From: Bordetella sp. 02P26C-1 | GTDB lineage: Bacteria; Pseudomonadota; Gammaproteobacteria; Burkholderiales; Burkholderiaceae_B | Assembly: GCF_009763255.1 (NCBI RefSeq) | Contig: NZ_WSJB01000032.1 | Coordinates: forward strand, 62,001-126,000 | Length of the DNA: 64,000 nt | Direction: 5' to 3' | Made by a program: the position numbers and the translations under genes | Shown: piece after piece, positions 2,712 through 6,307 of the stretch | How the letters are laid out: each line of letters starts with the position of its first letter | Numbering within the stretch: position 1 is the first letter of the stretch | Notes under the pieces: model-generated | The model's input: only the letters and a program-made list of their open reading frames with translations | The model's database searches: none | What the model was told of the DNA's origin: nothing

Positions 2712-3035
2712 ATGCGCGAACTCGCTCTGTCAACCATGCCAGCTGTTTCCGGCGGCCTGGATTCCACCACCGGCGCCGCCATGATTGCTGGCACCTTATC
2801 CCGAGCGCTTGCCTATACAGTAACTTCCAGTGTGACTGGCGGCTCCTGCACGCTCGAAGGGCTCAAGCCATCATGGACCAAAGGCTGGATTGTCCCAGGC
2901 ATCGCCGACGTATTCTTCGATAGCGACACCTATGAATCACGGCTCCCCGTAGCGTTCTTGTACGGCACACTGGCGGGATTCACCGACGCGCTGGAGCAGC
3001 GGGAGCAGGCGGCAACAATCGCCAAGCGCGATTGA
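2712..3035 (+). CDS. Small double-glycine-leader peptide 3 (cysteine-free core)
   Basis: 107-residue peptide with leader MRELALSTMPAVSGG and a strong ribosome site (AAGGAG) 7 nt before the ATG. The predicted mature chain of 92 residues starts LDSTTGAAMIAGTLSRALAY and contains the family core WIVPGIADVFF and RLPVAFLYGTLAGF. Where peptides 2 and 4 have Cys it has Phe and Val; its single Cys (GGSCTLEG) lies outside the core. It ends in a charged tail (EQREQAATIAKRD). It lies 22 nt behind peptide 2 and faces the autotransporter gene, with a hairpin between them. The product is probably secreted after leader cleavage; activity unknown. Confidence 0.72.
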   Translation: MRELALSTMPAVSGGLDSTTGAAMIAGTLSRALAYTVTSSVTGGSCTLEGLKPSWTKGWIVPGIADVFFDSDTYESRLPVAFLYGTLAGFTDALEQREQAATIAKRD

Positions 3036-3177: not shown

Positions 3178-5280
3178 TTAATAACGGAACGTCGCGGTCA
3201 GGTTACCCCCGTTCTCCTTATATCCCGCCCGGCCCTGATTGTGAAACAGTGCCAGGTTCAGCAAAAGATTTTTGTCGATTTCGCCCTCGACACCCAGCTT
3301 GACTTGCGCCACATCGCGCGCGTGCGAGAGTGTCGTGGTGACACCATCATCGTGAGCCTTGTAGGCCTTGTTGGTGTGCAACCAGTTGAGTTCAACATGA
3401 GGCGTGAAGGTCGAGTTTGATGTGCCTGCAAAGTTGGCCGCGGCCCGGACTCCAAGCACTGTTTGCAATCTCGGGCTATTGCTTACAGACACGCGTCTTG
3501 CGTCCCCGCTGTCAAAGCCCCGTGCGCGAACATTCTGATAGATCAGTTGTGCGTGTGGCTGCAACTTGTACTTAACATTGCCGCGCTCCGCGAGCATCGC
3601 GTCATAGCCGACTTCCAGCCCAGCGGTCAGCCCTTTGGCTTTGTACTTGTCGGCCGCGAGTTGATCTGTCTTGATCCGGTTGTCGAAAACGTTCCAGAGT
3701 AACCAGCTATCGATGTAGGCGCCGCGATCTTGACGACGGCCGTTTTCATAGTAGGTCCCATAAGCACCGAAGCTATAGCCGTTCACCGTGCCTGAACTAG
3801 AAGGCTTGTTCCGGTTAGAAGTGGTTTTGCCGTGATAGTGACCATACCCGCCCATAATGCCCAAGACGATTTGATCGCCACGCCGACCCGCTTCGTTGAA
3901 AAGATCGACGCCAAGCATGACGGCATTTTTGTCGCCTTTGTGGTGCAGTTGACCGGAAGCGTCGTTAAAGCGACTGTGGGAACCGCTATAGCGGATCCAT
4001 GCATTGCCATGCGTGTTCCCAGCGCTCATATCGCCAGGTTGATAGTTGGCCAGTCGCTCTTGCAGCGACAACTGGAACATGGTGTTGGCCGCCAACAGAT
4101 TGCTCGCAAATGCGCCGGCCCTGGGCGAATGTATCGGCATGGTGGCGATTGACGGCGGAGCATGGACCGGCGTGGTCTCCGTCTCCGGCATCACGGCGGA
4201 CGGGGATTCGGCAGCGGATTCAGGATTTGATTCTTGAGATGCTTCTTCGGGGTTATCCGGCGGAGTTTCTTCGACCGGCGGTTCCTGCGTTAACGGGTGG
4301 GTTTCCTTATTTGGGGCAGCCTTGGCATTGGGATTCATTTCTTTCTGAGACGATTGCTCCGCATCCTCCGCCCCCTCTTCTGGCTCGCCTTGACCATTTG
4401 ACTGCTTGGCGGACACTGCCGGCGACGCGTTTGAATCTTGATGCTGCCCAGGCGCGCTGGCTGTTTGCTTCTCAGTGCTTGCCTCTACCGTAGCCCGAGC
4501 GGCAGATTCGGCGTAATCGGTTAAATGAACAATCTCTTGTCCAGTTGTCTTCAACGTCGTTAGGGCATCCTTGATCTCGTCCCCAAGCGACGTTTCGCTA
4601 ATCACGGCTACGACATATGATGCTTCGCTGGCAGCGAGTGGCTTGGCGGCGTCTTCGAGTGCGACTGACGTACGGTCTATAAGCTTGGCGGCTTCTCCTG
4701 CCACGCGTGCGGCGTCTGCCAACTCTGGCCCTACCGGGGCTATGACCTTTAAAAGGTCTTCACTCTCTCGTCCCGCAAAGGCCTTCACTTCCTCCTCGGA
4801 TTGATCTGCCAGAGCAGTCAAGGCGACCCCGGTTTTCAGGGCGTCGGCCAACTCGGACACCAGACTGGTCGCAAGGAGCACCTCCGCAATATCTGATGTT
4901 TGTTGTTGCGCGAAGGCCTTCGCTGCGGTTTCCATCTCATCTGTTTGCCGCACGAGCCATCGCACCGTTCCATCACATACGCCCACTGCGTCTTGGAGCT
5001 CGGGCATGAGGGGTTTCAAGATAGTTTTGACAGCGGTCGGCAATTCCTCAACCGTTGACCAAGGAACGGGCGGTGAGCTGGATCGCTCCGACTTGGGAGA
5101 CATCGCATTCAACCCTGGTTTTTGTGGCTGCCGCTGCGATTCGCCCAACGCATGCGATACGCTAGGAACGGCCAGGGACGCCAGTAATACGCATGAAACC
5201 CACGACGGATTCCTACGGTGCCGCATGTGCTCGGTAGCCGTCTGGTCACCCTGCGCACACCCAATAAACTTGGTCATCAT
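3178..5280 (-). CDS. Autotransporter with helical-repeat passenger and pertactin-type beta-barrel
   Basis: 700-residue type Va secretion protein. The start at 5280 follows AGTGAGGATAGG; a Sec signal peptide lies at about residues 19-44 (MRHRRNPSWVSCVLLASLAV, cleavage near SHA), giving a long N-terminal extension before the hydrophobic core. Residues about 77-265 are Ala/Glu-rich and contain four degenerate repeats of 43-49 residues starting PELQDA (93), SELADA (142), PELADA (185) and DEIKDA (234). Residues about 270-375 are a Pro/Glu/Ser/Asn-rich linker. The rest (about 395-700) is an autotransporter beta-domain (FQLSLQERL, GNAWIRYSGSHSRF, terminal ATFRY ending in an aromatic residue). Typical relatives carry beta-helix passengers, so the helical passenger is unusual. 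It is transcribed against the flanking small-peptide genes. Whether the passenger is cleaved, and what it binds, cannot be told. Confidence 0.85.
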   Translation of the reverse strand: MMTKFIGCAQGDQTATEHMRHRRNPSWVSCVLLASLAVPSVSHALGESQRQPQKPGLNAMSPKSERSSSPPVPWSTVEELPTAVKTILKPLMPELQDAVGVCDGTVRWLVRQTDEMETAAKAFAQQQTSDIAEVLLATSLVSELADALKTGVALTALADQSEEEVKAFAGRESEDLLKVIAPVGPELADAARVAGEAAKLIDRTSVALEDAAKPLAASEASYVVAVISETSLGDEIKDALTTLKTTGQEIVHLTDYAESAARATVEASTEKQTASAPGQHQDSNASPAVSAKQSNGQGEPEEGAEDAEQSSQKEMNPNAKAAPNKETHPLTQEPPVEETPPDNPEEASQESNPESAAESPSAVMPETETTPVHAPPSIATMPIHSPRAGAFASNLLAANTMFQLSLQERLANYQPGDMSAGNTHGNAWIRYSGSHSRFNDASGQLHHKGDKNAVMLGVDLFNEAGRRGDQIVLGIMGGYGHYHGKTTSNRNKPSSSGTVNGYSFGAYGTYYENGRRQDRGAYIDSWLLWNVFDNRIKTDQLAADKYKAKGLTAGLEVGYDAMLAERGNVKYKLQPHAQLIYQNVRARGFDSGDARRVSVSNSPRLQTVLGVRAAANFAGTSNSTFTPHVELNWLHTNKAYKAHDDGVTTTLSHARDVAQVKLGVEGEIDKNLLLNLALFHNQGRAGYKENGGNLTATFRY

Positions 5281-5611
5281 CCTATCCTCACTTGGTACAA
5301 CGGTGTAGATCAGTCATCGAGCGAAGTATTGGGCCACAGTCCGCAAACCCGCCGCGGAAGATTCCATGTCCTCGCGGAAAACAGGACCCATGCACATGTG
5401 AGGACGCTCGACGTCGCAGCCTCCGACAACACGCGATCTGCGTATCGGTGCCTGACTGAAGTCTTATTTTTGGGGAGAAGACTAACTTTTATCCGTGCTG
5501 TTCACGACGGAGATTAGGCTTGGATCCGCTCGCCATCGTGTCTGGTGATGGCGGCGTTTCCGCATCCTTGGATGCATTCAATCGATAAATGCTTTAAAGC
5601 ACGGAGATATG
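5281..5611. other. Divergent regulatory gap between autotransporter and peptide 4
   Basis: 331 nt without a convincing gene, between the divergent starts of the autotransporter and peptide 4. It must hold both promoters. A weak inverted repeat (GTCTT ... AAGAC, about 5461-5482) is the only visible structure. No recognised operator. Confidence 0.5.
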
Positions 5612-5926
5612 ATGCGTGAACTGACTTTGCACGATCTGACCGACATTGGCGGTGGGAACGTGGTGAATGGTGCGTTTGTAAATTCGGTGGCCGCTGTGAT
5701 TCGAGGAGTTTTGGGAAGCGCGAGCACCGATCTGAGTTTAGGTAGCGCCATTGATTCCGCCCAGAGAGGGTGGGTCCTGACGACGGCGATCGATTATGGC
5801 TGCATGAATTTGGCTCAGGCGGGTGGAGGGGGAAATGAGCACTACATCCGCTTGACATGTGGCACTTTGTCCGCCCTATTACAGAGCTACGCCCGCTGGC
5901 CCATCACAAATAGCGATCAAGCGTAG
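5612..5926 (+). CDS. Small double-glycine-leader peptide 4 (two-cysteine type)
   Basis: 104-residue peptide with leader MRELTLHDLTDIGG and a third Gly. As in peptide 2, two ATGs are adjacent; the second is used because GGAG lies 5 nt before it and only 2 nt before the first. The mature region has a hydrophobic Val/Ala segment (FVNSVAAVIRGVL), then WVLTTAIDYGCMNLA and RLTCGTLSALLQSY. From the Trp, Asp is at +7 and Cys at +10, exactly as in peptide 2; from the Arg, Cys is at +3, Leu at +6 and Q-S-aromatic follows, again as in peptide 2. These are clear paralogues. A run of four Gly (AGGGGNEH) lies between the halves. Confidence 0.74.
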   Translation: MRELTLHDLTDIGGGNVVNGAFVNSVAAVIRGVLGSASTDLSLGSAIDSAQRGWVLTTAIDYGCMNLAQAGGGGNEHYIRLTCGTLSALLQSYARWPITNSDQA

Positions 5927-5974: not shown

Positions 5975-6307
5975 ATGCGTGAAGTTTCAACAAATGAATT
6001 GTCGATGGTAGGCGGCGCGGTCACCGCTACGGAAGTGGGCTGCACACTAGCGGCGGGCATCGTGGGTCAAGGGGCAGGCTACCTCGTCGCTGAATTATGG
6101 GATAGCGGCTTCAAGAAGCTTCCCTCCAGCGAATCATTGCACTCCGCCCTGACAGGCTGGGTTGCCCCGCTGGCAGTAAGCCTTGCTTACCACACAGAAG
6201 ATGTTTACCAATCTCGCGGCCCATTGAGTGTAGGCATCGGCTTCCTGGCTGGCATCGCACACCATCGGGCGAAGCAAAAGGCTGTCGAGCCTCAGGCGAC
6301 TGCATAA
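5975..6307 (+). CDS. Small double-glycine-leader peptide 5 (cysteine-free core)
   Basis: 110-residue peptide with leader MREVSTNELSMVGG, preceded by GGAG 7 nt from the ATG. The mature part opens with a Gly/Ala-rich helix (TLAAGIVGQGAGYLVAELW), then the family core WVAPLAVSLAY and RGPLSVGIGFLAGIAHH, and a basic tail (RAKQKAVEPQATA). The core has no Cys at the two positions used in peptides 2 and 4; its one Cys (VGCTLAA) lies near the mature N-terminus. It starts 48 nt after peptide 4 and is probably in the same transcript. Its stop lies 5 nt from the convergent stop of the next gene. Secreted peptide of unknown activity. Confidence 0.72.
   Translation: MREVSTNELSMVGGAVTATEVGCTLAAGIVGQGAGYLVAELWDSGFKKLPSSESLHSALTGWVAPLAVSLAYHTEDVYQSRGPLSVGIGFLAGIAHHRAKQKAVEPQATA

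Follow-up and report, generated by a model that had tools for sequence, protein, structure and literature searches.

A Bordetella autotransporter with an AIDA-I-type barrel and a four-unit, putatively helical repeat passenger

Export of autotransporters across the outer membrane is believed to be assisted by folding of the passenger once it is outside the cell, a model built on beta-helices. A small, repeated and apparently helical passenger that lacks an autochaperone is a natural test of whether helix folding, unit by unit, can drive export. The locus that raises this question lies in a 64,000-nucleotide stretch of the genome of Bordetella sp. 02P26C-1 (hereafter the window), where a first-pass annotation had described four helical repeats on a pertactin-type barrel. 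Here, we ask what kind of autotransporter this is, whether its repeat is genuine and helical, and how such a passenger may have come to be placed on its barrel.

Architecture and barrel type

A single unbroken reading frame on the minus strand (3178-5280) encodes a protein of 700 residues. This protein is a complete type Va autotransporter, comprising a putative signal peptide, a passenger, an acidic Pro/Glu linker, a plug helix and a 12-stranded barrel, with the following features.

3178-5280, minus strand: autotransporter gene, complete ORF, 700 residues (PF03797, E 2.4e-36; TIGR01414, E 5.8e-56)
5149-5280, minus strand: putative signal peptide whose N-region is extended, residues 1-44, assigned by eye from the sequence
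5053-5148, minus strand: short Pro/Ser-rich N-terminal stretch without predicted structure, residues 45-76
4897-5052, minus strand: repeat unit 1 (type A), residues 77-128, PELQDA at 93
4768-4896, minus strand: repeat unit 2 (type B), residues 129-171, SELADA at 142
4630-4767, minus strand: repeat unit 3 (type A'), residues 172-217, PELADA at 185
4477-4629, minus strand: repeat unit 4 (type B'), residues 218-268, DEIKDA at 234
4129-4476, minus strand: acidic linker rich in Pro, Glu and Ser, predicted to be coil, residues 269-384, net charge -16
3181-4128, minus strand: plug helix (386-400) and 12-stranded AIDA-I-type barrel, residues 385-700, ending ...FRY

A putative N-terminal Sec signal peptide is clear by eye, with a hydrophobic core WVSCVLLASLAVPS and a putative A-x-A-like cleavage site between SHA and LGE. 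Passenger (net charge -18) and linker are acidic, whereas the barrel is basic (+10); the long Pro/Glu linker reported earlier in front of the PF03797 barrel is indeed present. Assignment to type Va rests on this barrel with its 12 modelled strands, on the pore helix that precedes strand 1 and on a terminal aromatic residue, the C-terminus ...TATFRY being as for outer-membrane targeting. The same PF03797 barrel rules out a trimeric type Vc anchor (YadA-type, four-strand). Neither Pfam nor NCBIfam returned a match of the autotransporter to beta-helix, autochaperone or protease families, or a recognised enzymatic domain in the passenger; directly before the barrel, where these libraries likewise gave no autochaperone, there is Pro/Glu coil instead.

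The barrel proved to be AIDA-I/MisL-like instead of pertactin-type. Its PF03797 match reaches 126 bits, an NCBIfam match places it with AIDA-I/MisL barrels (NF011841, E 5.4e-55), and a PDB sequence search found AIDA-I (4mee, E 2.5e-36) as the sole solved structure, BrkA failing to reach E<=1. No pertactin-type family matched at E<=1 in Pfam or NCBIfam. When folds were compared with the barrel model, AIDA-I matched far better (TMt 0.92) than EspP, Hbp or BrkA (TMt 0.75 for the last). The nearest barrel relatives found outside were those of the Enterobacterales Buttiauxella, Leminorella and Ewingella.

The repeated passenger and its predicted fold

Residues ~77-268 are built of four degenerate units of ~43-52 residues each, and the four motifs listed above lie where they had been reported. 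Aligned locally to themselves at offsets of at least 30, residues 71-275 reach a best score of 105, against a mean of 35 and a maximum of 53 for composition shuffles (n=100) and a mean of 38 and a maximum of 63 for shuffles that preserve the hydrophobic/polar pattern (n=100); the repeat is real. Among 82 control segments of 205 residues taken from the window's long ORFs, one alone scores above the passenger, and it was identified by eye as a dihydrolipoamide-type lipoyl-domain repeat.

The repeat is hierarchical. Units 1 and 3 (score 52), 2 and 4 (51) and 1 and 4 (45) match at levels that none of 500 shuffles reached, whereas each neighbouring pair scores 31, a value reached by 8, 46 and 20 of 500 shuffles for units 1/2, 2/3 and 3/4, respectively. 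Because units 1/3 and 2/4 match far better than neighbours do, the arrangement is A-B-A'-B', and this duplication, with its period of 92 residues, is the main signal. A segment of ~46 residues would have been doubled to give A-B (~92 residues), and A-B would have been doubled in its turn. The hydrophobic segment ahead of each E-L-x-D-A motif belongs inside the unit; hence VEELPTAV, for which a partial fifth unit had been suggested, forms the start of unit 1, and four complete units cover the region. Both the E-L-x-D-A-like and the hydrophobic positions are kept in all four units. A repeat-unit profile run against the organism's own genome recovered exactly these four places and nothing more.

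For the passenger alone, AlphaFold2 predicted only helices, the long ones (91-126, 131-166, 174-215 and 231-274) falling one to a unit, at a pLDDT of ~54 and from a single sequence, a setting without homologue alignment that favours helices in Ala/Leu/Glu-rich sequence. The full-length model, whose alignment consisted of eight barrel relatives, has a helical passenger (pLDDT 30-50), a coil linker, the plug helix and 12 barrel strands, the barrel standing at pLDDT 77-93 over most of its length; it loses the helix break between units 1 and 2, giving one ~80-residue helix (77-158). Neither run predicts a strand in residues 45-380. For the passenger, Foldseek ranked generic antiparallel four-helix bundles highest, of which none reached E<=0.001, and profile matches in the PDB (ispG, PerR) lay below significance. 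A helical fold is the best reading of these models, at low confidence, and they contradict a beta-helix. The repeated helical passenger of the first-pass annotation is thus borne out as to helices and the absence of strand in residues 77-273, and weakened by low pLDDT; neither a beta-helix nor disorder without periodicity, the outcomes named there as contrary, was seen, in a fold that is not confidently predicted.

The low model confidence throughout the passenger would also suit a segment that is largely intrinsically disordered, as in TcfA, the repeat being a trace of tandem duplication in acidic, Ala/Glu-rich sequence that folds at most on partner binding. The low-complexity linker and the positional counterpart in Bordetella genomosp. 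4 (see below) point the same way, as does the prediction that B. pertussis TcfA is mostly unstructured (PMC9289746). However, in residues 77-268 hydrophobic residues are regularly spaced and proline is scarce, in contrast to the linker; this region is helical in two separate AlphaFold2 runs and, when the passenger was modelled alone, its helices break where units meet; and the conservation of motif and hydrophobic positions across four units also argues against disorder, which we consider rather unlikely. An elongated coiled-coil stalk or oligomer, in place of a monomeric helical bundle, would account for the long single helices of both models and for the merger of units 1 and 2 at full length. 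Set against this are the barrel, of the monomeric 12-strand type and not a trimeric YadA anchor, and the antiparallel arrangement of the best Foldseek bundles, and we judge a stalk improbable.

Passenger relatives and a four-locus barrel family

No relative of the passenger was found in nine Bordetella genomes or in plasmids, and no credible one among 268 genomes of the family. Nor did a scan by peptide pattern, which detects close relatives only, return any from 84,980 species, and a repeat-profile search of 369 genomes spread over the class gave nothing beyond one 26-residue match (G424, E 4e-4), at about chance expectation. Two candidates were rejected: a match in G190 (E 0.009) is to an MlaD/PqiB-type protein (PF02470, E 9.4e-42) and reflects chance helical similarity, and a GWIVRET...TAAKGY stretch in an own-genome autotransporter (C13:402219), which has the look of unit 1, gave z 0.0 against shuffles. 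As far as sequence comparison reaches, the four-unit repeat is an orphan within the genomes searched.

The same barrel is present in three further genes of this genome and in four of a sister species, Bordetella genomosp. 4 AU9919, at roughly 42-52% identity; in the seven remaining Bordetella species it was not found at E<=1e-20. Flanking DNA of the three further loci is common to both species, and the window site in B. genomosp. 4 holds relA, an acetyltransferase, a 480-residue protein and an autotransporter, RelA being 96% identical between the two. Because flanking DNA or genes are shared, the four loci appear to correspond between the species. At the window site, the B. genomosp. 4 autotransporter has a barrel 52% identical to ours and an unrelated passenger, a Ser/Thr/Gln low-complexity repeat. 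One locus pair has retained its passenger (29% identity, z 46) and one is borderline (z 4.0); in the other two, the window pair included, no passenger similarity is detectable. Barrels within B. genomosp. 4 (L019, L020, L021, L022) are 63-71% identical to each other, whereas their identity to the barrels at the corresponding sites here (L023, L024, L025 and the window) is 48-61%; either gene conversion or more rapid divergence in the species of the window would fit this pattern. A barrel tree did not recover site-wise orthology and, its branching inside Bordetella being without resolution, favoured neither gene conversion nor long branches.

Most likely, the barrel is the conserved, cargo-neutral hardware of this four-locus family and the passenger its fast-changing part, and the window protein fits a known Bordetella habit of mounting unrelated passengers on one shared anchor. 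Passenger turnover at the site could also be whole-gene loss and regain, not exchange within one gene. A more far-reaching reading is that of a lineage-specific autotransporter family: its four loci, dispersed but shared in position, would retain one barrel, and their passengers would be replaced or newly built by tandem duplication, the secretion route accepting these young domains, the orphan helical repeat included, without an autochaperone. It would take in the helical 46-residue repeats of the window protein and, elsewhere, helical-looking ~306-residue and Ser/Thr/Gln-rich repeats; we put it forward tentatively, as a possibility. Orphan passengers on one barrel bear on how surface proteins diversify in opportunistic Bordetella.

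Further observations concern individual members. The own-genome autotransporter at C13:402219 (L023, 4217-7930, minus strand, 1237 residues) has an Ala-rich, helical-looking passenger with two ~306-residue copies that are 63% identical. The B. genomosp. 4 counterpart at the dipeptide-transporter locus (L030, 4393-6973) is split by a frame change within the barrel and looks broken. An ABC ATPase beside many of the autotransporter loci was discounted as merely generic ABC similarity.

Known systems, a proposed export route and neighbouring genes

In both sequence and fold, the window barrel is closest to those of AIDA-I and MisL from Enterobacterales, whose passengers are long beta-helices and differ in this from the predicted helical repeat. 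Pertactin, BrkA and Vag8 (Bordetella Group 9) share with the window protein the genus and a PF03797 barrel, but the latter lacks a match to the pertactin beta-helix or autochaperone, and its barrel is nearer AIDA-I than BrkA. EstA, a GDSL-lipase autotransporter, likewise carries a non-beta-helical, mainly helical passenger directly on its barrel; it is an enzyme of known fold, whereas Pfam and NCBIfam reveal no lipase signature in the window protein.

Type Va passengers without a beta-helix have already been published for Bordetella TcfA/TynE and for the Group 14 adhesins (PMC3419190, PMC9289746). TcfA/TynE, for which passenger exchange on a common barrel was noted before (PMC3419190), resemble the window protein as small Bordetella autotransporters that put distinct passengers, in different species, on one barrel type (PMC3419190, PMC9289746). 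Their passengers are proline-rich and predicted to be unstructured, whereas here proline is abundant in the linker alone and residues 77-268 form a predicted helical repeat. Group 14 comprises the alpha-helical type Va adhesins Aae, Sca1, Sca2 and ScaC (PMC9289746), which share the type Va barrel and the lack of a beta-helix; a predicted alpha-helical passenger may also be shared, going by the all-helical model at pLDDT ~54. The window passenger is much smaller and, as judged indirectly from the lack of any family or structure match, shows no sequence relation to theirs. According to a review, helical passengers lack autochaperones, and vectorial folding is possible for at least one of them, a Rickettsia Sca protein (PMC8151025). 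To call the helical passenger unusual, as the first-pass annotation did, is fair in part, EstA, TcfA/TynE and Group 14 being published precedents. Helical or unstructured type Va passengers are thus known; the orphan four-unit helical repeat is new, as is its membership of a four-locus family in which positions are shared and passengers differ.

The account that we favour, and hold to be fairly probable, is of a type Va autotransporter whose four-unit alpha-helical passenger arose by two tandem duplications, would fold vectorially and would serve, tethered at the surface, as a fast-diversifying adhesin or antigen. By established type Va biology, the long signal peptide would direct Sec export and BAM would assist insertion of the barrel with a C-terminal hairpin. 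The passenger would then thread C-to-N with the acidic, disordered linker out first, each helical unit packing on the previous one at the surface and so favouring outward movement. Helical stacking would replace the autochaperone-nucleated beta-helix folding of pertactin, and the linker would hold the passenger away from the membrane. Because the passenger has no protease domain, it probably stays tethered. At the surface it might serve as a small adhesin or a decoy antigen; the adhesin role, drawn by analogy with Group 14 and TcfA (PMC9289746), is the weakest step.

Five small plus-strand ORFs of 103-115 residues lie on both sides of the autotransporter (1829-2140, 2342-2689, 2712-3035, 5609-5926 and 5975-6307). 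They have double-glycine leader-like N-termini, such as MMRELSLYGLDSVGGG and MREVSTNELSMVGG, without a Pfam or NCBIfam match above cut-off, and possibly encode bacteriocin/microcin-like peptides. Elsewhere in the genome (L055, G000:C1; 3286-4287 and 6213-9616) we observed a C39-peptidase ABC exporter of 727 residues with an HlyD-like partner, the only such exporter found in the genome and closest to NHLM/bacteriocin exporters, which may export and trim the window peptides in trans. This pair adjoins two more ORFs that start MRELS/MRELT.
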